A stretch of 64,000 nt of DNA from Phytopythium helicoides. Its lineage: Eukaryota > Oomycota > Peronosporomycetes > Pythiales > Pythiaceae. Positions within the stretch are counted from its first letter, which is position 1; every line of letters begins with the position of its first letter. Both the position numbers and the translations under genes were made by a program. The DNA lies in the NCBI GenBank assembly GCA_024867545.1, contig JANFNE010000003.1, forward strand, positions 496,001 to 560,000. Reading direction: 5' to 3'. The notes below the pieces were generated by a model, which saw nothing but the letters and a program-made list of their open reading frames with translations, was not told the DNA's origin and searched no databases. Positions 1-55,690 of the stretch are shown here, one piece after another.

Positions 1-2309
1 GCGGCGAACACTGGCTCGTAGATGGTCGAGTCGATCGGCATCTGCCAATACGTCCGAGCAGCACGCGACTCCAACGTCAGCAGCAGACGGCCGATATGCT
101 CAATCGGCTTGACTCCAAACGCACGGCCAGCCAGAAACACGCCGTAGTAGGCGTTCACAGCCTCGCTCACACTCTCTTGGGACTTGCCACCTTCGAGAGT
201 GTACACACCACTAGCGAAAGAGTGGCCATCGAACCACGAAAAGTGGCGAGCTAGCGGGAAAAAGCGGCTGCAGCAGAACATGACGTCAGACTACCAGTAA
301 ATGCATGGCAGGCAAAAGGAAAATGTCGTAAACGTACTCGTCGTGGACCGGACTGGCGATGTCACGAGCAATCGACATGACAGCAGCTCGGTGCGTCTCG
401 GCAAACTCGGGACGGAACTTGGCGACGACAGCCACTGCGTACAGGAAGTAGCCATAGTGGAAATGCTGCACCACCATCAAAACACTTGCGTCAAACATTC
501 TGATTCCCCCATGGATTTTGGAATCAGTCGGCTTGAACTTACATGATCGTTGTACCAGCCATTGCCGAAATCCGTCATCCAGAAGACACCCTTGAGACCG
601 TTCAGCGAGCACAGACCACCCCAGCTACGCTCGTACACAAAGTGGTCGCCGTTGGCACCGACCAGCCATGGAGTCACCCACTCCTCAACCTGGTCGATCA
701 ACGTTTCACGGGCGGTAGTGTTGCCCAACTTGTCGGCAATCAGCGCGAGACGAATCTGGCGAGCAATTTCCTTGCCAAAGTAGTACGGATCCTGCGCCTC
801 GGGGGTGTAGTTTGAGTCCAAAATGAGCGCAGCGGCGATCTCTCCCTTGAGGCGGTCAGGCACGGGAGCCATCGACGAGTCATCCGCCGCATCGAACGTC
901 GTGGTGGGCAGCTGCTCCGTCAAGCGCCAGCACGAACCACGCACCGCTGTCATGTACGACTTCAACGTTCGGTATCCAAGTGTTGAAAGCACCTCGAAAG
1001 AATCGTCGGTCGCAAAAGTTGCCACATGATGCGGGTTGGCCAGCATCAGCAATGCTGGACTGACGTTGCTGCTAACTGGGCGGAACTTCGACGTCGTCCA
1101 GCAGAATGTCACATCACCTCGAGCCTGGCTGTCATCAGCATCATCCACGGAGAACTCGAGCGTAGATGAAACCGGGTAGACGTGTGCAGATTCGTCCAGG
1201 AGACGGATTGTCTCCTCTGCCTTGTCGCCGTTCGGCACCACAGCAAGACGCGCCGCACCTGAGTAAAAATTCGAGTCCACAAGGCGAATATTGGTAGGCG
1301 TCGTCAGCTCTCCGCGGAAGTTGTACGGACGGTAGTCCTTCTCATTCGCAAACTGCAGACGCAACGTCCGCGGCTCGCCAAAGTAAAGCAGCCACTTCTG
1401 ACGCGCTAGCCCAGCAGGAACCGAATCATCTGCTGACCTGGTGCTGTTTTCGCTGTGAGCACCGTACACAAGCACGTCGAGCTCAAAGCGTTGCGACGTC
1501 CACTGCTGCAGCTCGGCAGCGGGAGCCGCAGGGTCTTTGTCCACCACTTGGTCGCCATTCACGCTCAGCACGGTCGCGTTGAATTCGAGCACCGGGATGA
1601 TGCGCTGGTACTCGACCGTCACGTACGGCGCTCCTCGCACGAGCAGCGCCTTCATCCACTGGTCGGGGTCGCTGCTGAAGTGGTACTTCACGGTCACCGA
1701 CAGCGAGTCAAAGGCTTCAACATCTCGCACCGTGCTGTTTCCATCTCCGAGCAGCGCCGTGGAGTGGTTGGCCTGGTCCACGGCCTGGCTGTATCCCGCA
1801 AAGCTGGCGTCCACGTTGAAGTACTCGGTCACGTCGTCCTTGGTGGCCACTCTCCGCGAGTCGCCGTACGAGATCTCGAGCCTCTTGGGCATGCTGCGCA
1901 CCGTGTACGGGCTGAGCGTGACCTGCCCCGCCCCAACGTTGAGTCCATGCCCGTCGCCCACGAGCAGGTTGGTCCAGAACGCGTTCGTGGGGATCGCGCG
2001 GCCATGCACCGACACGAGCCGCGGCGGGATCGGGTGCAGCTTGGAGATGAACGGCGGTGCGAGCGTCAGCAGCTCCTCGTCCGTCAGCCTGGCGGTCTGC
2101 GGCGCGGGCGCCGCCTTGGCCTTGGCCGCCTGCGCCTTGCGATGACCCGCAGCCGCCACGTGCCAACTGAGCAAAACGAGCAGCACGACGGCCACCGGCA
2201 CCGCCACGAACAGCGCGCGGCGCCGGCGGTTCTGGCGGCGCACGGCGTCTCCAGGCTCGGCGTCTGCGCGGCGCGCGGGCAGCAGCGGCGACGACTCGTG
2301 CGGCGCCAT
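1..2309 (-). CDS. GH81 endo-1,3-beta-glucanase, membrane-anchored (3' end outside window)
   Basis: Hydrolyses 1,3-beta-glucan, the main oomycete wall polymer, so a role in wall remodelling is likely. Exons on the minus strand are 2309-543, 465-338 and 267 to beyond base 1; both introns (77 and 70 bp) have GT-AG ends and keep frame. The N-terminus is basic, followed by one hydrophobic anchor (about residues 32-54), giving a type II membrane or cell-surface topology. Next comes the GH81 beta-sandwich (NAFWTNLLVGDG, SPYTVR). The first intron falls inside NDH|HFHYGY, the segment with the family's catalytic Asp; SQESVSEAVN, carrying the paired acidic residues, lies in exon 3. The remaining C-terminus is off the window. 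No frame damage is seen. A 5'-truncated inverted copy lies at 6940-7794. Confidence 0.93.
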
Positions 2310-3279
2310 CGGCGGCGGAGGGAGGAAGCAGAAGTGCCCTCCATGAGTTTGGACGCATCAAGAGAAAGATACCAAGAGCTACGGTGAGGGTTTTGGCCAA
2401 TGGGAGGGAGGGATTGGAGGATTCGAGGGAGATGATTGGAGGAAAAGATGGTCACTGAAGCGAATTGAGACTAAATCAGGCGACAGAGTTCCATTTTTTT
2501 TGCGCTCGCGACGACAGACCGGAATCTGGTTTGCGTGCTTTGGCTGCTTGGCGTGCGACTCCCGTCGCCAGTCATTTGCCGCACGTACGTGGCGTCATCT
2601 GTTGAGGCGACGAGACTCGACAGATGCTGCACACTGCTTTGAGTGTCAGGGTGGCGCCGCCTTGATTCACGACACCAATGCACACAACGAAAAGTGAGAG
2701 CTATCCGGATAACTTTTTCGCTCACGAGGGCAAGCATTTTCGAGTGGTTGCAGCGGTGATACCTGTGTCCACGGTCGAGCACCAGATGTGTCAGTTTTCC
2801 GACACAGACGTCGAACTGCGGTCACGTGGACCTGGAGTGGCGATTGATATTGATGTGGGGGCATTCGCTGCGTGGCGAGCGTTCATGAGCCACAAATGAC
2901 CAAGAATCGGTTTGAATATTTCTTATGTGTATTCAGGACATGTCTGTGTTGCACGCAGTACCTGATCGCGCTGGATGCGACACATTTCACTGCATGCTGC
3001 TTCACTTTGGTATGACTAGTGACGCAAAATCAATGATGCAGGCGGATTCGGACGAAATCGTTGATCATCTCGACAGAAAGTTTGATTTTTCGAGTGCGCT
3101 AGCTCAGGGTCAATCGATACGCTGCTTATCAACTTCATCGGCCCTGCAAATGATCAGTCACTTCAAGATGTTGTTGAGAAATGCAACATCTAAATGAACA
3201 CCTGTGAATTGGGAGACAATGGAACGGAACCCAAGGTGGAAGTAGAGGTACCGGTACTGAAGATTAACATGCCTCCCAA
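2310..3279. other. Intergenic: upstream region of GH81 gene, no convincing gene
   Basis: The first ~200 bp form the upstream region of the minus-strand GH81 gene and include a pyrimidine-rich stretch with CCCATTGGCC on that strand. The rest has only short unrelated reading frames (for example 2925-3197 and 3194-3379, plus strand) without recognisable motifs. Part of it may belong to the decayed copy that follows. Confidence 0.5.
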
Positions 3280-31683: not shown

Positions 31684-33903
31684 ATGGCAGACACCAGTGA
31701 GTCCAAGTGGGCTTTCCTCCACCAGTGGTGCGCACCCGTGCGTTCCAGACTGAATCTTGGCAAGGTATGGCGCCTCCAGTCCCGCAAACCTGAGGCGAAA
31801 ACCTTAGAGATCAATCTAAAGCTACCGGAAAATGGCTTTTGTCCTGATCACCTACTCGACATCCGAGATGCTTTGGTGCTGCTCACACTACTTGCACGAG
31901 TTGATATGAAGGCGTGGGTATACGTCATGACGGCGTTCTGCAACATCCCAGCCGCCAAGTTGGAAAATACATTGGCCTGTCTTGAGAACGCTTCTTTCGA
32001 TAAGCTGCGATTCGAAGTGTGGGTTGATGACAATGAATTGGCGGATATAACCTTCATCGAAAAATTGGAGTTCCCGACAGCAGTATCGATCGAATGGCTG
32101 CTCATTGGGCTCGAAGCGAAAGTGTATCGTACGAAGAAGCTCGAAATGGCGATCCAGAATATTCTTTCACACACACCGCCCAATGTTGCTGTGGACCCTC
32201 TCGTCGATGTGTGTGTGTCTCTGCGTTGCAAGGTTCCGTCGGGTCTGTGGGCGAAAATGAAGCAACTCTGGGCGAACAATGGAGGATGGCGCTTTCCGAT
32301 TCCAGTAGAGTGTGAGGTGGCGTGCTCAATTGTGTTGGAGCCCAATCCACGTTTAGCTGCTATGGATACCATCGACGAGATTGCGCGAGTGCTGGTGGGT
32401 CTTGTCACTGAATGTGGCGATTTCACAATCGAGCAGTTGAAAAGTTTCACCGAACCCACCTGGCTTCAAAAGCACCAACGGCTAGACGAAGCATCTCTCA
32501 TTCAAACCTTGGGTCGAATCAACGAGCAAGTGTTTTGCGCTGGTGGCTCCTCGCCGGAAAGTCGAGCAAATCTGAAAGCTGTTGATATAAATGGTCCCAG
32601 CCATACGCCTACTCCGTTCGTGCGTGTGTGCTCTGCCATCGCAAACTGTCGACAAACCTCGAAATGCACAGTTACGTTGTTCGAAAGTGTATTCGAGGAC
32701 GAGGAGGAAGCTTCAAGAGCCAGGAAATGGGTGTGGCGAAGTTTGGCTTATGCACTTTTTTCATCCTACGCACGAGTCCACTCCACGATCTCGAGTGTCG
32801 CTATTAAGGTGTTCATGATGAACCAGGAAGACATTGAAGCTATAGCTGAGCTGCTGAGCTCATCTGACCCAACGAGTCTGCTGTACGACAGGCATAACAG
32901 CTTTGACAATGTTCGTGACCAAAGCCTCAAGATGCTGAGAAAGGGAGTGATGCTGAAGGTGGAACCACTAGGAGACTCGTTTGAAACAATTTCTGAAGAC
33001 ACCGCAGTCTGGGAGCTCACAACGGATGTGGATCACGTTCAAGTACTCCACGACGACCCTGAACAATCGGAAGTATTAGTGGTGGTTCCTGGCTATGGCG
33101 TTTGCTCGGTCGCTCGTGAGGCATTGCAGCCGACAACATCTGCACCCCTTGCTGACAACCCTGTCACCAGTTTGGAGCTGGACTGGACTGGATTTGATCC
33201 TATTGACTACGGGTCCATTTCTCAATTCCTGCAGCTTGTCGGGTCACCATTGACGCGTCTAGTAGTATTTTCCGGGCCAGATGTCGACGAATGTCCTATT
33301 GCAGCTATTTTGAGTTCGTGCCCAAACCTCAAGACACTAAATGTTGGATTGGGATCTATCTGCACTGAGTCATTCCTGCAAGCTTATCACTCCAGCAAAG
33401 TTTGTCTTGAAGATCTGGACTGCCGCTTCGACGATGCTATTCTGCTTATGAATGAGCTGAAGGACACAACCAATCGTCTGGGACAAACACTCAAAGGCTT
33501 GAGGTGCTATGCTCGCGGGTGGCAATCTGCTGAGCTAGCACTCGCATCCATCCGAGAAATGTTGGCGTTGAACAAGGTGCTCGAGTTCTTTCATCTAGAA
33601 GCTGACGGTATGAACACAACCGTTACAGGAGGCTTTGCCATCCCAGAAACCTTTGCCGCCGAATTCCACAACGAGCCACTTCCTGCTGCTCAGTCGCCGT
33701 TGCCAGTTGAATGTCGTATCGCGTTTATCAGCGTATTCTACTCGTATGGGCGATCAAAGATTGGCAATCCCTTGAACAAGCGATTGTGCACGTTGTCGAC
33801 GCTGAGCAGTCTGGAGTTGCCTCGCGATGTGATGGAGCGCATTTTTGCCTTTGCCGCGCCGCGTGTGCTTCGCCGGGTGTATGTATCGCCCCACGAATAT
33901 TAG
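31684..33903 (+). CDS. F-family protein F6 (739 aa, unknown function), intact
   Basis: Intact single exon starting ACCATGG (MADTSESKWAFLHQWCAPV). It belongs with F7 and F8 to one closely related subgroup and is its only undamaged member here. Family blocks: IRDALVLLTLLARVDMKAWV, VRVCSAIANCRQTSKCTVTL, WRSLAYALFSSYARVHSTIS, VVVPGYGVCSVAREAL, CPNLKTLNVG, LEDLDCRFDD and TLKGLRCYARGW. It ends LPRDVMERIFAFAAPRVLRR. A short basic patch (NPLNKRLC) takes the place of the NLS-like patch of F1/F4. The stop is 133 bp from the convergent kinase gene; the same F-kinase arrangement recurs in the palindrome. Confidence 0.86.
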   Translation: MADTSESKWAFLHQWCAPVRSRLNLGKVWRLQSRKPEAKTLEINLKLPENGFCPDHLLDIRDALVLLTLLARVDMKAWVYVMTAFCNIPAAKLENTLACLENASFDKLRFEVWVDDNELADITFIEKLEFPTAVSIEWLLIGLEAKVYRTKKLEMAIQNILSHTPPNVAVDPLVDVCVSLRCKVPSGLWAKMKQLWANNGGWRFPIPVECEVACSIVLEPNPRLAAMDTIDEIARVLVGLVTECGDFTIEQLKSFTEPTWLQKHQRLDEASLIQTLGRINEQVFCAGGSSPESRANLKAVDINGPSHTPTPFVRVCSAIANCRQTSKCTVTLFESVFEDEEEASRARKWVWRSLAYALFSSYARVHSTISSVAIKVFMMNQEDIEAIAELLSSSDPTSLLYDRHNSFDNVRDQSLKMLRKGVMLKVEPLGDSFETISEDTAVWELTTDVDHVQVLHDDPEQSEVLVVVPGYGVCSVAREALQPTTSAPLADNPVTSLELDWTGFDPIDYGSISQFLQLVGSPLTRLVVFSGPDVDECPIAAILSSCPNLKTLNVGLGSICTESFLQAYHSSKVCLEDLDCRFDDAILLMNELKDTTNRLGQTLKGLRCYARGWQSAELALASIREMLALNKVLEFFHLEADGMNTTVTGGFAIPETFAAEFHNEPLPAAQSPLPVECRIAFISVFYSYGRSKIGNPLNKRLCTLSTLSSLELPRDVMERIFAFAAPRVLRRVYVSPHEY

Positions 33904-34036
33904 CACTGGATGATGCGCTTTGCCAGCAGCTAACAAGTTCAGTTCTTTCGTCAGCAGCGTTTTATTGCTCCGTAATAGAACGAGTGGTTGCTCAATTGAA
34001 TAAATCTAGTTCTACTTTCTTCCTTCCATCCATCTA

Positions 34037-36415
34037 TTACACTGCAATCACCCCTGCGGTCGAACTCCGTGTACCAGACGACGCAGCCGTCGCCGATCGG
34101 CTCGACGACCGAGCACTAGACACACCGCCGTCTTCGCTCTCGCCACTTTGCCGCAGCGATGGTGCGATGATGCTTTTCAGGGTAAACGCGATTTGCATGG
34201 CACTCGGTCTGCGATCCGGGTCCAGATCGGTGCACTCCAATGCGAGTGTCTTGAGCGCCAAAGGACAATCGTCCCGAAAGCCAACGCGCGCTTTGCCCTG
34301 CTTGACGAGCTGCGCAATTTGCATCCCCGGTAGACGCTCGCTGCCATCACGTCCACTGCCAGTAGGGTCAGTCACGTGAGCAAAAGGCGGAAGGCACGTG
34401 TCCAGCTCTGAGAGCACCACACCAAACGAGTACACATCTGCCTTCTCTGAGTACTTGCGGCCCTGGATGATCTCCGGCGCCGTCCACAACAAGGGTGCCA
34501 ACACCCGAGGTCATAGTCTCGTTGATCTGAGCCTGACGACTCACACCGAAGTCGGAGAGCTTAACATGCCAGCTGCGAGAGAGCAGGACGTTCTTGGACT
34601 TGAGATCGCGATGGACCACGACAGGACGCAAGCAATGGAGGTAGACTAAGCCCTCTGCGACGCCCATCGCGACCTTCATCTTCTCCTTGCGCCACGTCAT
34701 CTTGGTTCCAAGCTTACGGATGACTGCATCCAAGTCCCCTGCATCCATGTACTCGACAATTGCGCTGAGATTCTGCAATCGGTCCCATGTTACACCGACA
34801 AAGCTGATAATGTTGGCGTGCTCCAGACCAGCCATGAGCTGGATCTCCGCCGCGAATTGCTCCAAGTGCGGCGTTGCATGTTGCCGCTCCGGGTAGTAGC
34901 TTCTTGATGGCAACGTGTCGCGTCTCGAGCTGTCCGAGCCATACCTCGCCGAAAGCTCCTTTCGACAAGCAAGCGAAGGAACGTCAGGTCCTCGTACGGA
35001 AGACGGTTGGCAGAGATATTGGGGTCGGCAAAAAATGCAGATAGCGCCTCTGACTCGGAGCAGTACTCCTCAACAGACTTTGCCCCACCCTGTCCGCGGC
35101 GTGTAGCCGACGATCGTCGGCGATCCAATGTTCTTGGGTCCATAGTTGTATCTCGACCTCCGCCAACAATGGATCCCAGCCATGTCTGTCGCCACGAACG
35201 GCCTCGAGGCTGGTTGTTGGTGTCTGGAGCTCCTTGACCCGCAGGAGTTGGCCGGGCTCCAACTGCTCGCGACTGCCAGTGGTTTCCAGAGTCCCCGCTC
35301 TGCCCAGGGTCCTTGTGCGCGCGACGGCTCTGGCGGCAGCGACGCACGACAAGTGAGAAGGCGACAAGGAACACGACGGCCCCGCACACTGCGAGAATCA
35401 CAGCAAGAGTCGGCGGAGACGAGTCCTCGGCAGTTGACGTTGTTATGGTCGTCACCTCGCCGCTGCTGCTCGATGAAGAGCTCGCTGCGTCAATGAGGCT
35501 GACGGTCGCTATGAACGCGGCGATGCGGGAGCTGTTGACTGCTGGTGGGCAGAAAGAAGCTGCTGCTGCTACTGCGCTGCTGTTGGCGGTTGAGGAGCCG
35601 CTCAACCTCCGGCAGGGGATGATCATGTCGCCTGAATTGTAGCACTCGACGCCCGAGTCGGATGCGCGCATGTGGATGGCGGCCACCTCGATCGCGTCGC
35701 CAGCCGACCCCGACGCCGAGTCCTCCGTCGTGAGCGCGTGGAGGTAGGCCTGCGGGTACGGGATGGCGCTGCTGGAGCTGGCCGACGTCCACGCAGATCC
35801 GCTGCTGAACGGCAGGCTCTCGTCTCCGTCGACGATGGCGCACCGGAAGCCTGCGACCGCTTGGTCTGCGCACTGGGAGTTGGTGGCCTGCTCGAAGGCC
35901 CCGCAGTTGGCCGCTCCGCACTCGAACTCGTCCGCCGCCAGTCCAATGGCCCGCATCTCGACGCCCAAGCCGCCCTCGCACGCCGTGAACACCTGCACCA
36001 CCGCGTCGCCAGCCACACCCGTCGAGCCCTCAAGCCCCGAGAGCACCAAGCCGTGCTCCCACAGCAGCGCGACCTTGGCGACGTCCGGCAGCCGCCCCCA
36101 CGCGTCTGCACCGCCAGCAGAGCGCAAAACCTCCGCCGGGACGGCGGACGCCGCCGGCGCGCTAAGCTCCGAGTCGACGGCCGACGCGAGCGCCAGCGCC
36201 TGGCAGCGGCCCAGGACGTCGGAGCTGGCGCCGGAGCTGGAGCTGGACGCTGGAGCTGGAGCTGGAGCTGGAGCGGGAGCTGCGCATGGCGTCGAGTTGG
36301 CGAGTGAGGAAGCGGCGAGTTTCCCCCGGGATGGCGCCATGATGGGGCGGCGCATAGTGAAGCCAAGGTACTCGCGGATCGTTGAGGCGCGCCGCCCATC
36401 ATCGTAAGATATCAT
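34037..36415 (-). CDS. Receptor-like TKL protein kinase (~790 aa, three frame breaks)
   Basis: N-terminal ~300-residue presumed extracellular domain rich in Ser/Ala with several Cys, one membrane span (LAVILAVCGAVVFLVAFSLV) and a cytoplasmic TKL-type kinase domain. Kinase motifs are spread over frames: SKGAFGEVWLGQLE and HVAIKKLL, then EIQLMAGLEHANI, VVHRDLKSKNVLL and LSDFGVSRQ, then LLWTAPEIIQG and DVYSFGVVLSELD. Removing one base at each of three points (near 34965, 34885 and 34497) restores a single 792-codon frame. All catalytic residues (VAIK Lys, HRD, DFG) are present. The C-terminal tail is Ser-rich. An Ala-Pro hexamer run sits near the N-terminus. Convergent with F6; its 3' part is copied several times in the palindrome. 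Start could also be the ATG near 36340. Confidence 0.8.
36231..36283 (-). repeat. GGAGCT hexamer repeat coding Ala-Pro/Ser
   Basis: Tandem GGAGCTGGAGCT units, within the kinase N-terminus; read on the minus strand they encode an AP run next to a Ser run. Confidence 0.85.
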
Positions 36416-46371: not shown

Positions 46372-46505
46372 GCATCATCGCACCATCGCTGCATCAAAGT
46401 GGCGAGAGCGAAGACGGTGGTGTGTCTAGTGCTCGGTCGCCGAGCCGATCGGCGACGGCTGCGTCGTCTAGTACACGGAGTTCGACCGCAGGGGTGATTG
46501 CAGTG
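46372..46505 (+). pseudogene. TKL kinase 3' fragment (outer, left arm)
   Basis: Matches the last ~45 codons of the kinase at 34037-36415 (APSLRQSGESEDGG region and Ser-rich tail to the stop). Cut at the palindrome edge. Confidence 0.75.
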
Positions 46506-46642
46506 TAATGGATGAATGAAAGGAAGAAAAGTAGAGCTAGATTTATTCAATTAAGCAACCACTCGTTCTATTACCGAGCAATAACAGGGTGCTGACGAAA
46601 GAACTGAACTTGTTAGCTGCTGGTAAAGCGCATCATCCAGTG

Positions 46643-48846
46643 CTAATATCCGTGGGGCGATACATACACCCGGCGAAGCACACGTGGCGCGGCAAAGGCA
46701 AAAACGCGCTCCACCACATCGCGAGGCAACTCCAGACTGCACGATCGCTTGTTCAAGGGATTGCCAATCATTGATCGCCCATACGAGTAGAATACGCTGA
46801 TAAACACGATACGACATTCGACTGGCAATGGCGACTGAGCAGCAGGAAGTGGCTCGTTGTGGAATTCGGCGACAAAGCTCTCTGGGATGGCAAAGCCTCC
46901 TCTAACGGTTGTGTTTATACCGTTGGTTTCAAGATGAAAGAACTCGAGCACCTTGTTCAACGCCAACATTTCTCGGATGGATGCGAGTGCTAGCTCAGCA
47001 GATTGCCACCCGCGAGCATAGCACTTCAAGCCTTTGAGTGTTTGTCCCAGACGATTGGTTGTGTCCTTCAGTTCATTCATAAGCAGAATAACATCGTCGA
47101 AGCGGCAGTCCAGATCTTCAAGACAAACTTTGCTGGAGCGATAAGCTTGCAGGAATGACTCAGTGCAGATAGATCCAACTCCAACATTCAGTGACTTGAG
47201 GTTTGGGCACGAACTCAAAATGGCTGCAAAAGGACATTCGTCGATATCTGGCCTGGACATTACTACTAGACGCGTCAACGGTGACCCGACAAGCTGCAGG
47301 AATTGAGATATGGACCCGTAGTCAATAGGATCAAATCCAGTCCAGTCCAGCTCCAAACTGGTGACAGGGTTGTCAGCGAGGGGTGCAGCTGTTGTCGGCT
47401 GCAATGCCTCACGAGCGACCGAGCAAACGCCATAGCCAGGAACCACCACTAATACTTCCGATTGTTCAGGGTCATCGTGGAGTACTTGAACGTGATCCAC
47501 ATCCGTTGTGAGCTCCCAGACTGCGGTGTCTTCAGCAATTGTTTCAAACGAGTCTCCTAGTGGTTCCACCTTCAGCATCACTCCCTTTCTCAGCATCTTG
47601 AGGCTTTGGTCGCGAACATTGTCAAAGCTGTTATGCCTGTTGTACAGCAGGCTCGTTGGGTCAGATGAGCTCAGCAGCTCAGCTATAGCTTCAATGTCTT
47701 CCTGGTTCATCATGAACACCTTAATAGCGACACTCGAGATCGTGGAGTGGACTCGTGCGTAGGATGAAAAAAGTGCATAAGCCAAACTTTGCCACACCCA
47801 TTTCCTGGCTCTTGAAGCTTCCTCCTCGTCCTCGAATACACTTTCGAACAACGTAACTGTGCATTTCGAGGTTTGTCGACAGTTTGCGATGGCTGAGCAC
47901 ACACGCACAAACCGAGTAGGCGTATGGCTGGGACCATTTATATCAACAGCTTTCAGATTTGCTCGACTTTCCGGCGAGGAGCCACCAGCGCAAAACACTT
48001 GCTCGTTGATTCGACCCAAGGTTTGAATGAGAGATGCTTCGTCTAGCCGTTGGTGCTTTTGAAACCAGGTGGGTTCGCTGAAACTTTTCAACTGCTCGAT
48101 TGTGAAATCGCCACATTCAGTGACAAGACCCACCAGCACTCGCGCAATCTCGTCGATGGTATCCATAACAGCTAAACGTGGATTGGGCTCCAACACAATT
48201 GAGCACGCCAGCTCACACTCTACTGGAATCGGAAAGCGCCATCCTCCATTGTTCGCCCAGAGTTGCTTCATTTTCTCCCACAGACCCGACGGAACCTTGC
48301 AACGCACAGACACACACACACATCGACGAGAGGGTCCACAGCAACATTGGGCGGTGTGTGTGAAAGAATTTTCTGGATCGCCAATTCGAGCTTCTTCGTA
48401 CGATACACTTTCGCTTCGAGCTCAATGAGCAGCCATTTGATCGATATTGCTGTCGGGAACTCCAATTGTTCGATCCAGGTTATATCGGCCAATTCATTGT
48501 CATCAACCCACACATCGAATCGCAGCTTATCGAAAGAAGCGTTCTCGAGACAGGCCAATGCATTTTCCAATGTGGCAGCTGGGATGTTGCAGAACGCCGT
48601 CATGACGTATACCCACGCCTTCATATCAACTCGTGCAAGTAGTGTGAGCAGCACCAAAGCATCTCGGATGTCGAGTAGGTGATCAGGACAAGAGCCACTT
48701 TGCGGTAGCTTTAGATTGATCTCTAAGGTTTTCGCCTCCGGTTTACGGGACTGGAGGCGCCATACCTTGCCAAGACTCAGTCTGGCACGCACGGGTGCGC
48801 ACCACTGGTGGAGGAAAGCCCACTTGGACTCACTGGTGTCTGCCAT
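46643..48846 (-). pseudogene. F-family member F7 with +2 frameshift in a GT tract
   Basis: Starts at 48846 (MADTSESKWAFLHQWCAPV). It is closely similar to F6 except for two extra bases in a GT run near 48312-48329 that shift the frame after NVAVDPLVDVCV. Downstream 558 codons, from VSVRCKVPSGLWEKMKQLWA, are open and undamaged. Six residues near the C-terminus present in F6 (between KRLC and SLELPRDV) are missing. As it stands it could make only a ~190-residue N-terminal protein, or a C-terminal product from a later start. The identical break in F8 shows the insertion preceded, or was copied by, the palindrome. All other family blocks are as in F6. Confidence 0.88.
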
Positions 48847-49064
48847 GGTCTGTGCACTGATCAAAGACGAATGATCTCAAAATCGACCATTCCTACCCAG
48901 GAAGGAAAGTCCCCGGAAATACCGAGGAGATACCGAGAACTATCCTGCCATGAGTATAGCAATGGATGACACAAAGTAGAGCGAGGTGCTGGTCACAAGC
49001 ACGATCATTCATTGCGGATATACATTCAGCGCTCTATTTGCTTTCCAATCCCTCCATCCATCTA

Positions 49065-49700
49065 TTACACTGCAATCACCCCTGCGGTCGAACTCCGTGT
49101 ACCAGACGACGCAGCCGTCGCCGATCGGCTCGACGACCGAGCACTAGACACACCACCGTCTTCACTCTCGCCACTTTGACGCAGCGATGGTGCGATGATG
49201 CTTTTCAGGGTAAACGCGATTTGCATGGCACTCGGTCTGCGATCCGTGGCCAGATCGGTGCACTCCAATGCGAGTGTCTTGTGCGCCAAAGGACAATCGT
49301 CCCGAAAGCCAACGCGCGCTTTGCCCTGCTTGACGAGCTGCGCGATTTGCATCCCCTGTAGCCGCTCGCTGTCCCCACACTACACATCGGCCCTGGATGG
49401 TCTCCGGCGCCGCCCACAACAAGGCGTCTCCTCCACCCAAGGTCATGATCTCATCGATCTGAGCCCGACGACTCGCACCAGAGCCCGAGCGCTCGACGCG
49501 CCAACTGCCAGCCTCAATGTCGCGAACTCCCGCATCACCTCGCGATGCAGCCCCAAACCAGCGCACGCCACGCGCGTGTCCACCCACTCCTCCCTCCCGA
49601 CTCGACAGCTTCTCCCTTGGCAGTGAGGTGACGCCTCCCCTCCATTCCTCCACTTGTGTCCAGCGGTCTCTCTCCCCTCAACGCGAGCCCCTCGACTTGT
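49065..49700 (-). pseudogene. Decayed TKL kinase 3' fragment (inner, left arm)
   Basis: Homologous to the kinase at 34037-36415 from just after the HRD region to the end: SRRAQIDEIMTLGGGDALLW (for SRQAQINETMTSGVGTLLW), APETIQG, then in another frame MQIAQLVKQGKARVGFRDDC and DRRPSAMQIAFTLKSIIAPS and the Ser-rich tail. The HRD, DFG and DVYSFG parts are lost or unreadable. Repeated almost unchanged at 51862-52497 and 55054-55690. Confidence 0.78.
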
Positions 49701-50037
49701 CAACTTGCCCTCGAGAGAAAACGAGACTGGCGTCGACGGATCCAGCACCGCGCGCGGTCGTGGTCTGTTGTTGCTGCTGCCTCCATCGACGCTGGTTGTC
49801 ATGACAGCCACGATCTCCTGCAGCTCCACCGCCTTTGGAGTGTCGTTCAAGTAGAATAAAAGCGGCGTGCATGTGAGTTTACATGTTTATCAGAGGAGAG
49901 GAGGCCGATACTTTCTGCCAACCCGCTCCACCTCGAGAAAGCTGCTTCGAGGGCCAGGAAAGAGGATCACGTTGCTCGAGCGATGCTGTTGCGGTTGGTG
50001 GCGCGGGACTCGAATGTGACGAGCGGACAGTGGCACA
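49701..50037. other. Arm sequence between kinase fragment and nuclease relic
   Basis: Frames here have no recognised homology. Part of the palindrome arm, mirrored at 51525-51861. Confidence 0.5.
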
Positions 50038-51015
50038 TCAATCGATTACACGAAATTGTATCGAACCAAGATCAGTACACGCAGTACCCGAGCTACTGTA
50101 ATAATAATAATAAAAAACGACCTGAACTCGGACGGTTCTCAATGCTTCATCAACAGCGTCAGCAAGCGAGAATGCTCGTTCCAAATACTCTGTGACTACC
50201 ACCGTAGTCTTGTCCAGCATAGCAGTAACTCGCTCCCGTCTTCGATGTACTCGTCAGGGTTGCATCGTATGAAAACGCATGGAAGCACAAGAAGCTCTTG
50301 TATCTTGCGCATGCGTGCATCTTCGTCAGCTATCTTGTATCTTGCATGCTGTCTCTCATCTACCTCGATGAGTACATAGTGTGTGCCGGCCCAAATTAAT
50401 ACGTCAGGCCGCAAGAGGGAATTCCCAACCCTCTTGTCAAGCACAATCATCGGGTAGAGCTCGAGCAGAGGTATCATAAGCAGCGTCTCTTTCTTCCGCG
50501 CTCGCTCCTTGGACAGATGCTTCAGTAGATCGTCAACAGTCTTCTGCTTGAGCGCGCGCGGTCTCGGCGGCCGCAGCCTAGCTCTGTGTCTGGACCTGAA
50601 CATATTCACCCATCCATCACCAAATCTTGGACGCTTCGCTGGAGGTATCATCATGTCCTCCGCGACTTGCTGGCCTGCACGGACAATCTCCTCGGGCGTT
50701 TGCGTGGTGTTCCTATTAAGCTTCGCCAATCAGCCAGCTCAAATTCCAAAGTCCTCACTCCGCGCAGCGTCTTGGCTGACCGCACCTCCACGGGATTCTG
50801 CGCAGTATTTCACTCTCGGGCAAGATCTTCGTTACCGCCCCTCAGAGCGGGATCGCAAGCCCATGATACTGAAGGCACTTCGACTTCTCCTGAAAGTACG
50901 TCGTGAGCTCGTGTACCGCTAATCCATCCTTGTTGTGCGCGTCGCACAGCTTGATCTTGTATCAGATGGTCAGATACACGTACTTCTTGTGCTTGCGTCC
51001 GTCGTCACTGTGCAT
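50038..51015 (-). pseudogene. Relic of a psq/CENP-B HTH + PD-(D/E)XK-like nuclease gene
   Basis: Read on the minus strand from ATG 51015. First, a pogo-transposase psq-type helix-turn-helix (KYVYLTI, TGA, YKIKLCDAHNKDGLAVHELT, TYF, then AVTKILPESE after another TGA). Next VRSAKTLRGVRTLEFELADW and, after a frame change, LAKLNRNTTQTPEEIV...FGDGWVNMFRSRHRARL, a CENP-B-type HTH. The same 177-codon open frame (50729-50196) continues into LDKRVGNSLLRPDVLIWAGT, HYVLIEVDERQHARY and CVFIRCNPDEY, which resembles the RPD..(V/I)IE(I/V)DE.QH..Y...FIRFNPD pattern of giant-virus endonuclease-like proteins and Vsr/DUF559-type PD-(D/E)XK folds. A further frame (to 50038) seems to be its C-terminus. No DDE transposase core is visible. 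Confidence 0.7.
50098..50115. repeat. (TAA)n microsatellite, left arm
   Basis: ATAATAATAA units; mirrored as TTATTATTA at about 51448-51463. Confidence 0.85.
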
Positions 51016-51091
51016 GGCCAGCTCCTCATGTGGCTGTGAGGCAGCGCGCTACTTCTTGCGCTGCATATCGTGGGGCGGGGATGCCACACTG
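50471..51091. other. Palindrome spacer (~620 bp, single copy)
   Basis: The only part of 46370-55192 without a mirror image. Holds the DNA-binding half of the relic gene on the minus strand. Arm similarity starts at CTCGAGCTC..CCCGATGATTG on both sides. Confidence 0.85.
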
Positions 51092-51524
51092 CTTTGCTCG
51101 AGCTCAACCCGATGATTGTGCTTGACAAGAGGGTTGGGAGTTCCCTCTTGCGGCCTGATGTATTAATTTGTGCCGACACACACTATGTACTCATAGAGGT
51201 AGATGAGAGACAGCATGCAAGATACAAGATAGCTGATGAAGATGCACGCATGCACAATATACAAGAGCTTCTTGTGCTTCCATGCGTTTTCATCTGATGC
51301 AACCCTGACGAGTACATCGAAGACGGGAGCGAGTTACTGCTATGCTGGAAAAGACTACGGTGGTAGTCACAGAGTACCTGAAGCGAGCATTCTCACTTGC
51401 TAATGCTGTTGATGAATCATTGAGAACCGTCCGAGTTCAGGTCGTTTTTTATTATTATTATTACAGTAGCTCGGGTACTGCGTGTACTGATCTTGGTTCG
51501 ATACAATTTCGTGTAATCGATTGA
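51092..51524 (+). pseudogene. Second copy of the nuclease domain, 5'-truncated
   Basis: Encodes PMIVLDKRVGSSLLRPDVLI, HYVLIEVDERQHARYKIADE and CVFI followed by a TGA where the left copy has Arg, then in another frame LEKTTVVVTEYLKRAFSLAN. It begins in mid-gene at the arm/spacer junction and lacks both HTH regions. Differs from the left copy at several residues (for example ICADTHY against IWAGTHY). The nuclease signature RPD..IEVDE.QH is unchanged in both copies. Confidence 0.75.
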
Positions 51525-51861
51525 TGTGCCACTGTCCGCTCGTCACATTCGAGTCCCGCGCCACCAACCGCAACAGCATCGCTCGAGCAACGTGATCCTC
51601 TTTCCTGGCCCTCGAAGCAGCTTTCTCGAGGTGGAGCGGGTTGGCAGAAAGTATCGGCCTCCTCTCCTCTGATAAACATGTAAACTCACATGCACGCCGC
51701 TTTTATTCTACTTGAACGACACTCCAAAGGCGGTGGAGCTGCAGGAGATCGTGGCTGTCATGACAACCAGCGTCGATGGAGGCAGCAGCAACAACAGACC
51801 ACGACCGCGCGCGGTGCTGGATCCGTCGACGCCAGTCTCGTTTTCTCTCGAGGGCAAGTTG

Positions 51862-52497
51862 ACAAGTCGAGGGGCTCGCGTTGAGGGGAGAGAGACCGCT
51901 GGACACAAGTGGAGGAATGGAGGGGAGGCGTCACCTCACTGCCAAGGGAGAAGCTGTCGAGTCGGGAGGGAGGAGTGGGTGGACACGCGCGTGGCGTGCG
52001 CTGGTTTGGGGCTGCATCGCGAGGTGATGCGGGAGTTCGCGACATTGAGGCTGGCAGTTGGCGCGTCGAGCGCTCGGGCTCTGGTGCGAGTCGTCGGGCT
52101 CAGATCGATGAGATCATGACCTTGGGTGGAGGAGACGCCTTGTTGTGGGCGGCGCCGGAGACCATCCAGGGCCGATGTGTAGTGTGGGGACAGCGAGCGG
52201 CTACAGGGGATGCAAATCGCGCAGCTCGTCAAGCAGGGCAAAGCGCGCGTTGGCTTTCGGGACGATTGTCCTTTGGCGCACAAGACACTCGCATTGGAGT
52301 GCACCGATCTGGCCACGGATCGCAGACCGAGTGCCATGCAAATCGCGTTTACCCTGAAAAGCATCATCGCACCATCGCTGCGTCAAAGTGGCGAGAGCGA
52401 AGACGGTGGTGTGTCTAGTGCTCGGTCGTCGAGCCGATCGGCGACGGCTGCGTCGTCTGGTACACGGAGTTCGACCGCAGGGGTGATTGCAGTGTAA
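51862..52497 (+). pseudogene. Decayed TKL kinase 3' fragment (inner, right arm)
   Basis: Mirror of 49065-49700: the same kinase remnants (AQIDEIMTLGGGDALLWAAP, then the C-terminal MQIAQLVKQGKARVGF frame and Ser-rich tail). Ends about 200 bp before the F8 start, in the same direction. Confidence 0.78.
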
Positions 52498-52686
52498 TAG
52501 ATGGATGGAGGGATTGGAAAGCAAATAGAGCGCTGAATGTATATCCGCAATGAATGATCGTGCTTGTGACCAGCACCTCGCTCTACTTTGTGTCATCCAT
52601 TGCTATACTCATGGCAGGATAGTTCTCGGTATCTCCTCGGTATTTCCGGGGACTTTCCTTCCTGGGTAGGAATGGTCGATTTTGAG

Positions 52687-52700
52687 ATCATTCGTCTTTG
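52687..52700 (+). promoter_or_regulatory. Initiator-type core promoter of F8 (mirrored for F7 at 48862-48875)
   Basis: ATCATTCGTCTTTG, 15 bp before the ATG at 52716, identical to the F6 element. The ~100 bp upstream of F6 (GGATAGTTCTCGGTATCTCC onward) is also conserved. Confidence 0.5.
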
Positions 52701-52715
52701 ATCAGTGCACAGACC

Positions 52716-54919
52716 ATGGCAGACACCAGTGAGTCCAAGTGGGCTTTCCTCCACCAGTGGTGCGCACCCGTGCGTTCCAGACTGAGTCTTGGCAAAGTAT
52801 GGCGCCTCCAGTCCCGTAAACCGGAGGCGAAAACCTTAGAGATCAATCTAAAGCTACCGCAAAGTGGCTCTTGTCCTGATCACCTACTCGACATCCGAGA
52901 TGCTTTGGTGCTGCTCACACTACTTGCACGAGTTGATATGAAGGCGTGGGTATACGTCATGACGGCGTTCTGCAACATCCCAGCTGCCACATTGGAAAAT
53001 GCATTGGCCTGTCTCGAGAACGCTTCTTTCGATAAGCTGCGATTCGATGTGTGGGTTGATGACAATGAATTGGCCGATATAACCTGGATCGAACAATTGG
53101 AGTTCCCGACAGCAATATCGATCAAATGGCTGCTCATTGAGCTCGAAGCGAAAGTGTATCGTACGAAGAAGCTCGAATTGGCGATCCAGAAAATTCTTTC
53201 ACACACACCGCCCAATGTTGCTGTGGACCCTCTCGTCGATGTGTGTGTGTGTCTGTGCGTTGCAAGGTTCCGTCGGGTCTGTGGGAGAAAATGAAGCAAC
53301 TCTGGGCGAACAATGGAGGATGGCGCTTTCCGATTCCAGTAGAGTGTGAGCTGGCGTGCTCAATTGTGTTGGAGCCCAATCCACGTTTAGCTGTTATGGA
53401 TACCATCGACGAGATTGCGCGAGTGCTGGTGGGTCTTGTCACTGAATGTGGCGATTTCACAATCGAGCAGTTGAAAAGTTTCAGCGAACCCACCTGGTTT
53501 CAAAAGCACCAACGGCTAGACGAAGCATCTCTCATTCAAACCTTGGGTCGAATCAACGAGCAAGTGTTTTGCGCTGGTGGCTCCTCGCCGGAAAGTCGAG
53601 CAAATCTGAAAGCTGTTGATATAAATGGTCCCAGCCATACGCCTACTCGGTTTGTGCGTGTGTGCTCAGCCATCGCAAACTGTCGACAAACCTCGAAATG
53701 CACAGTTACGTTGTTCGAAAGTGTATTCGAGGACGAGGAGGAAGCTTCAAGAGCCAGGAAATGGGTGTGGCAAAGTTTGGCTTATGCACTTTTTTCATCC
53801 TACGCACGAGTCCACTCCACGATCTCGAGTGTCGCTATTAAGGTGTTCATGATGAACCAGGAAGACATTGAAGCTATAGCTGAGCTGCTGAGCTCATCTG
53901 ACCCAACGAGCCTGCTGTACAACAGGCATAACAGCTTTGACAATGTTCGCGACCAAAGCCTCAAGATGCTGAGAAAGGGAGTGATGCTGAAGGTGGAACC
54001 ACTAGGAGACTCGTTTGAAACAATTGCTGAAGACACCGCAGTCTGGGAGCTCACAACGGATGTGGATCACGTTCAAGTACTCCACGATGACCCTGAACAA
54101 TCGGAAGTATTAGTGGTGGTTCCTGGCTATGGCGTTTGCTCGGTCGCTCGTGAGGCATTGCAGCCGACAACAGCTGCACCCCTCGCTGACAACCCTGTCA
54201 CCAGTTTGGAGCTGGACTGGACTGGATTTGATCCTATTGACTACGGGTCCATATCTCAATTCCTGCAGCTTGTCGGGTCACCGTTGACGCGTCTAGTAGT
54301 AATGTCCAGGCCAGATATCGACGAATGTCCTTTTGCAGCCATTTTGAGTTCGTGCCCAAACCTCAAGTCACTGAATGTTGGAGTTGGATCTATCTGCACT
54401 GAGTCATTCCTGCAAGCTTATCGCTCCAGCAAAGTTTGTCTTGAAGATCTGGACTGCCGCTTCGACGATGTTATTCTGCTTATGAATGAACTGAAGGACA
54501 CAACCAATCGTCTGGGACAAACACTCAAAGGCTTGAAGTGCTATGCTCGCGGGTGGCAATCTGCTGAGCTAGCACTCGCATCCATCCGAGAAATGTTGGC
54601 GTTGAACAAGGTGCTCGAGTTCTTTCATCTTGAAACCAACGGTATAAACACAACCGTTAGAGGAGGCTTTGCCATCCCAGAGAGCTTTGTCGCCGAATTC
54701 CACAACGAGCCACTTCCTGCTGCTCAGTCGCCATTGCCAGTCGAATGTCGTATCGTGTTTATCAGCGTATTCTACTCGTATGGGCGATCAATGATTGGCA
54801 ATCCCTTGAACAAGCGATCGTGCAGTCTGGAGTTGCCTCGCGATGTGGTGGAGCGCGTTTTTGCCTTTGCCGCGCCACGTGTGCTTCGCCGGGTGTATGT
54901 ATCGCCCCACGGATATTAG
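52716..54919 (+). pseudogene. F-family member F8 with the same +2 frameshift as F7
   Basis: Mirror copy of F7; the only protein difference noticed is Ser for Ala near residue 21 (PVRSRL against PVRARL). The extra GT dinucleotide lies at about 53233-53250, after VDPLVDVCV. The downstream frame (558 codons from 53243) contains VRVCSAIANCRQTSKCTVTL, VVVPGYGVCSVAREAL, CPNLKSLNVG and LPRDVVERVFAFAAPRVLRR. Ser for Ala at residue 21 agrees with F6, so this arm is nearer the parent at that site. Followed by a convergent kinase fragment, as F6 is followed by the intact kinase gene. Confidence 0.88.
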
Positions 54920-55053
54920 CACTGGATGATGCGCTTTACCAGCAGCTAACAAGTTGAGTTCTTTCGTCAGCACCCTGTTATTGCTCGGTAATAGAACGAG
55001 TGGTTGCTTAATTGAATAAATCTAGCTCTACTTTTCTTCCTTTCATTCATCCA

Positions 55054-55690
55054 TTACACTGCAATCACCCCTGCGGTCGAACTCCGTGTACCAGACGACG
55101 CAGCCGTCGCCGATCGGCTCGGCGACCGAGCACTAGACACACCACCGTCTTCACTCTCGCCACTTTGACGCAGCGATGGTGCGATGATGCTTTTCAGGGT
55201 AAACGCGATTTGCATGGCACTCGGTCTGCGATCCGTGGCCAGATCGGTGCACTCCAATGCGAGTGTCTTGAGCGCCAAAGGACAATCGTCCCGAAAGCCA
55301 ACGCGCGCTTTGCCCTGCTTGACGAGCTGCGCGATTTGCATCCCCTGTAGCCGCTCGCTGTCCCCACACTACACATCGGCCCTGGATGGTCTCCGGCGCC
55401 GCCCACAACAAGGCGTCTCCTCCACCCAAGGTCATGATCTCATCGATCTGAGCCCGACGACTCGCACCAGAGCCCGAGCGCTCGACGCGCCAACTGCCAG
55501 CCTCAACGTCGCGACCTCCCGCATCACCTCGCGACGCAGCCCCAAACCAGCGCACGCCACGCGCGTGTCCACCCACTCCTCCCTCCCGTCTCGACAGCTT
55601 CTCCCTTGGCAGTGAGGTGACGCCTCCCCTCCATTCCTCCACTTGTGTCCAGCGGTCTCTCTCTCCCCTCAACGCGAGCCCCTCGACTCT
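55054..55690 (-). pseudogene. TKL kinase 3' fragment (outer, right, extends past the arm)
   Basis: Same remnant as the inner fragments, convergent with F8: C-terminal frame 55341-55054 (MQIAQLVKQGKARVGFRDDC onward) and SRRAQIDEIMTLGGGDALLW in another frame. Continuous with kinase-derived sequence to about 55690, where it departs from the inner copies (after CTCAACGCGAGCCCCTCGAC) into unrelated GC-rich DNA. Confidence 0.76.

Follow-up and report, generated by a model that had tools for sequence, protein, structure and literature searches.

The giant-virus 'Endonuclease' proteins (Pithovirus, Marseillevirus, cedratvirus and Faunusvirus; BFVD entries) appear to be nucleases of a homing or competition type whose DNA-binding parts can change. 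I-Bth0305I and other phage homing endonucleases of the EDxHD (Vsr-like) kind have their nuclease tethered to modular DNA-binding regions including helix-turn-helix (HTH) domains and zinc fingers (PMC3943268). Pogo-type (Tc1/mariner) transposases carry an HTH and a CENP-B-like domain (PMC7325037), and the Ectocarpus transposase TcMar-2_Ec32 bears an EsV-1-7 domain at its N-terminus (PMC12477816). Here we analysed a stretch of 64,000 nucleotides (the window; contig JANFNE010000003.1, G000:C24:496001-560000) from the 49-Mb, 100-contig genome of the oomycete Phytopythium helicoides, the one genome to which all in-genome results refer. The open reading frame (ORF) described below probably belongs, in decayed form, to a small gene family in which a pogo-type HTH module lies N-terminal to a giant-virus-type PD-(D/E)XK endonuclease.

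Database relatives were collected by two alignment searches, which returned 20 and 13 proteins, 30 of them distinct. The window ORF has the nuclease domain and the invariant residues of the giant-virus endonucleases, and in these and in relatives with EsV-1-7, C2H2-like or KilA-N parts the DNA-binding or zinc part is N-terminal, as here. EsV-1-7 zinc repeats (PF19114) were detected in 7 of the 30 relatives, KilA-N in P0029 and weak C2H2 matches in P0028; the last two proteins document that the same nuclease pairs with several DNA-binding modules. The locus differs in its pogo-type HTH, for which neither profile matched any of the 30 relatives (best expectation value, E, 0.4, with proteins up to about 620 residues searched), and in that the window copy has no zinc part (EsV-1-7 or CxxC) before the nuclease, as judged by reading and Pfam. 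EDxHD homing endonucleases head the list of solved folds for the relative P0008. Compared with them, the DNA-binding part here appears to derive from a eukaryotic transposase, a search of the PDB gave no sequence match, and the putative likeness is one of fold and modules. The N-terminal CENP-B/Tc5-type HTH is shared with pogo-type transposases, whereas a PD-(D/E)XK-type nuclease stands where they have a DDE/DDD core, and no terminal repeats were seen in the flanks specified below. TcMar-2_Ec32 likewise combines the giant-virus-associated EsV-1-7 domain with a transposon protein, but this is the reverse combination, in which the transposase is retained and the zinc motif gained.

A preliminary description of the window had reported an open frame at 50729-50196 (minus strand) with a CENP-B-type HTH running into a nuclease signature. 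Both the frame, 177 codons without a stop, and the quoted motifs were recovered. In 20 first-order Markov simulations a mean of 10 stop-free frames of 177 codons arose per 64 kb (range 5-19), and 68 were observed in the window. This length is thus unremarkable, and the weight therefore rests wholly on sequence similarity. The locus comprises the following parts:

50196 to 50729, minus strand: the 177-codon open frame, with a partial Tc5/CENP-B-type HTH followed by a giant-virus-type PD-(D/E)XK nuclease (translation, Pfam, profile searches)
50583 to 50717, minus strand: Tc5/CENP-B-type HTH, ORF residues 5-49, its first helix outside the frame (PF03221 and own-genome pogo profile)
50651 to 50809, minus strand: frame with the likely first HTH helix (LEFELADW), one frame off the ORF (by eye against transposases; no Pfam match)
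50211 to 50507, minus strand: nuclease domain, ORF residues 75-173 (alignment, profile, structure model)
50038 to 50253, minus strand: probable C-terminus of the nuclease gene, read in a different frame, the break lying somewhere in 50196-50253 (by eye against relatives)
50840 to 51015, minus strand: stop-broken pieces proposed as a psq HTH, without statistical support (profile and Pfam)

Sequence and model evidence supports the C-terminal half as a giant-virus-type nuclease of PD-(D/E)XK character rather than a DDE core. A profile with 26 of the 30 relatives as its sole source (P0015, P0016, P0019 and P0020, which lack the motif used for trimming, were omitted) ranked the ORF first among 1908 window frames with E 1.4e-23, followed by a palindromic copy of the nuclease (E 1.8e-14, see below) and the continuation of that copy past its stop (E 0.21). 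The giant-virus endonuclease signature E..RPD..ExDE..H..R..RxNPD is present, with E81, RPD107-109, E122, D124, E125, H128, R139, R155 and NPD157-159 kept. The structure model of the ORF reached a predicted local distance difference test (pLDDT) score of 71, better in the nuclease part, and yielded 22 viral fold matches in BFVD at E ≤ 1e-3; all 18 matches that name an organism point to giant viruses. For P0008, which is better modelled, the closest solved folds by a modest margin were I-Bth0305I and Vsr, in a list consisting mainly of PD-(D/E)XK-kind nucleases. A Pfam scan of the ORF did not find a nuclease family, and the ORF as a single-sequence query had no match among 5.8 billion proteins. 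No DDE family appeared among the Pfam matches of 11 selected frames scanned across 46643-53294. Profile, viral folds and the folds of P0008 agree with the earlier proposal of a giant-virus-type nuclease in place of the DDE core, and the profile search placed this half with the nuclease. DUF559 (PF04480) gave no Pfam match on the ORF and a weak one on the sibling locus L009 (E 0.17); among the viral fold matches, one carries the name DUF559 domain-containing.

In sequence, the N-terminal half is similar to the second HTH (Tc5/CENP-B) found in pogo-type transposases. PF03221 (HTH_Tnp_Tc5) aligned to residues 5-49 over model positions 17-61 of 66 with E 0.0021, its score of 18.4 bits being below the cut-off of 22.2. 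A profile from six psq+Tc5 transposases of the same genome placed the ORF first of 1908 (E 4e-4; runner-up E 2.4), and so did a profile from 20 same-genome Tc5-type loci, which had been fetched and their pogo-type N-termini read (E 0.0055). The preliminary description had joined a pair of HTHs to the nuclease. Its CENP-B/Tc5 member is borne out by these first ranks, while the psq member, placed just upstream, is not: the best stretch had E 20 and ranked 26th of 4260 scanned windows in the profile search, and Pfam reported none. Psq pieces are legible in the broken upstream frames of the window copy, and the siblings L007 and L005 do match psq.

The same nuclease occurs at other places in the genome. 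A search with the window ORF returned the palindromic copy and eight other places with 32-42% identity within residues 66-168, the weakest of which, L012 (E 0.69), was confirmed from L008 with E 7e-21. With L007 and the HTH part of L005 as queries three more decayed places were found, one on C26 and two on C16, bringing the family to 13 places, in 7 of which the invariant E, RPD, E-x-D-E, H, Y and R-x-N-x-D align. The window copy is a pseudogene today. Stops or frame breaks are present in it and in the palindromic copy, L005, L006, L008, L010, L012, L051 and both C16 copies, and the nuclease frame is unbroken only in L007, L009 and L011. L007 unites, in 246 codons uninterrupted by stops, a psq-like half and a nuclease bearing every invariant residue, so that in this genome the two parts are not always separate genes. 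In L006, the clearest case, a Tc5-type HTH and an EsV-1-7 motif share one frame, followed by one TAG and then the nuclease:

L006 889 to 1953 (G000:C90), minus-strand reading: motif-bearing stretch in the order HTH, EsV-1-7, nuclease (Pfam)

The L006 motif is above the Pfam cut-off (28.9 bits) and is the sole such motif found in the genome. L008 repeats the HTH-zinc-nuclease order, its HTH being in a different frame, so two family members bear an EsV-1-7-like zinc motif between HTH and nuclease. The HTHs of the two are 43% identical over 35 residues (E 5e-6 in a two-sequence comparison), and the zinc and nuclease parts 49% over 204. By reading, the zinc part is missing in L007, L009 and P0012; it is frequent in the family and does not define it.

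Accidental neighbourhood would be one explanation of the pairing: common pogo fragments could have landed upstream of old giant-virus-type nuclease genes, with a chance merging of frames. The genome holds at least 37 Tc5-type matches, all 37 above the Pfam cut-off. The surroundings of the nuclease were examined at 11 loci (window, L005-L012 and both copies on C16, but neither L051 nor the right-arm copy), where 830 nucleotides on either side, translated in six frames, gave 132 frames. Matches above the HMMER inclusion threshold were obtained with the psq profile at L007 (5e-5) and L005 (8e-4) and with the Tc5 profile at L008 (3e-6), the window (1e-4) and L006 (2.6e-3); an earlier scan of wider flanks had already revealed these five. 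All five fell among the 33 upstream same-strand frames and none among the other 99, which is not expected from chance neighbourhood, nor is the order common to L006 and L008. At L009-L012 and the two C16 copies no HTH exceeded the threshold in this test. Both C16 copies are nevertheless similar to the HTH part of L005 (41-42% identity, E about 2e-4) ahead of a decayed nuclease (E 9e-5), and this HTH region common to three loci likewise speaks against accident. By one method or the other the pair is present at 7 of the 11 loci. L060 has an HTH without nuclease. In the wider flanks two other pogo-type HTHs were seen close to L007 and L051, neither of them upstream of the nuclease on its own strand; these remnants are located at L007 2792-3330 (+) and L051 2367-2636 (-).

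Several points limit the case for the proposed family. The HTH scores are weak, frames of 177 codons are not rare, and the two pogo fragments near L007 and L051 have other orientations; all three would suit accident. Tree support is weak. Around the sibling loci, no flanking inverted repeats were seen within 1.5 kb of L005-L012 and L051, a search that would miss short ones; at the window the palindrome masks any that exist. On balance, accident appears unlikely to us, and the sequences of the HTH-nuclease pairing suggest a small gene family that has mostly decayed. At the DNA level L007 is single-copy and the window is single-copy apart from its palindrome partner. With no terminal repeats seen and these two checked stretches single-copy, nothing speaks for recent transposition.

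The probable origin as a fused family draws directly on the nuclease family with its invariant residues, on the resemblance to Tc5-type HTHs and on the recurrence and order of the pair. Its further steps are conditional. In the ancestral protein the HTH, taken from pogo transposases, would have fixed the protein at a particular DNA site, and the nuclease domain would then have cut the adjacent DNA by metal-ion catalysis, as in the modular phage homing endonucleases. The gene may have persisted as a homing-type selfish gene, or the host may have kept it for a while. Its likely, putative role is that of a nuclease, either homing-type or domesticated, with a pogo-derived HTH to aim it. The data suggest that, in several members of one family within one genome, the part by which a giant-virus nuclease is aimed was acquired from a eukaryotic transposase. 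If true, this would show in concrete terms how new sequence-specific nucleases can arise by recombination of viral and transposon parts, and the unbroken frame of L007 is suited to measuring binding and cutting.

It is improbable, in our estimate, that the family as a whole is host-domesticated, with nucleases captured from giant viruses and retained to defend the genome from viruses or transposons, and the HTH borrowed to target transposon ends. The unbroken L007 with all invariant residues, the divergence of the copies and the lack of amplification of the two checked stretches would fit such a history, while the ten broken members listed above, as opposed to three with an unbroken nuclease, do not. 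Least of all do we expect plain remnants of endogenised giant-virus genes with the HTH already fused in the virus: the nuclease (by fold matches) and EsV-1-7 (PMC12477816 and PMC12993054) do occur in giant viruses and are found together in 7 of the 30 relatives, but the pogo-type HTH was absent from all 30 within the size limit given, though few of the 30 have a known source.

The window gene lies at the centre of a palindrome with arms of about 4.1 kb:

46372 to 50470, no strand: left arm, with 28 differences in 4099 sites, 21 of them within 50145-50470
50471 to 51091, no strand: unique spacer of 621 nucleotides, which contains the HTH together with the beginning of the nuclease domain
51092 to 55190, no strand: right arm
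51040 to 51297, plus strand: palindromic copy of the nuclease, homologous from 51092, without HTH and motif-I Glu; a TGA at 51298-51300 ends the frame

Clustering of the differences in the 326 nucleotides adjoining the spacer most likely reflects recent gene conversion in the outer arms. A second instance of the nuclease half lies at about 51092-51417 (plus strand), and the HTH half occurs in the spacer only. Nuclease homology begins at ORF residue 75, and the arm boundary is at residue 86/87, inside the nuclease, with the motif-I Glu (81) in the spacer; therefore the fused left copy is the older one and the right copy a truncated duplicate. By eye, the C-terminal end appears to lie in a different frame in both copies, and therefore the gene was probably broken before the palindromic duplication copied its nuclease half. 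A second inverted duplication, L063 678-3336 and 5915-8562 (G000:C16:26877-29535 and 32114-34761; 2.66-kb arms, 98%), carries two decayed L005-type HTH+nuclease copies, head to head like the window pair, so that family loci lie within two palindromes. Both might be scars of the nuclease's own cutting, in an undescribed class of eukaryotic selfish genes in which a giant-virus homing-type nuclease repeatedly takes up pogo DNA-binding modules and homes on transposon ends or satellite DNA; we regard this as rather unlikely.

A 629-nucleotide arm segment (51885-52513; mirror 49049-49677) recurs inverted at 55038-55666 with 98% identity, at and beyond the end of the right arm, and by this repeat the window palindrome is nested in a further duplication. 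Elsewhere in the window, the frame 480-2357 (minus strand) has strong matches to glycosyl hydrolase family 81 (PF03639, E 1.4e-30; PF17652, E 4e-12).
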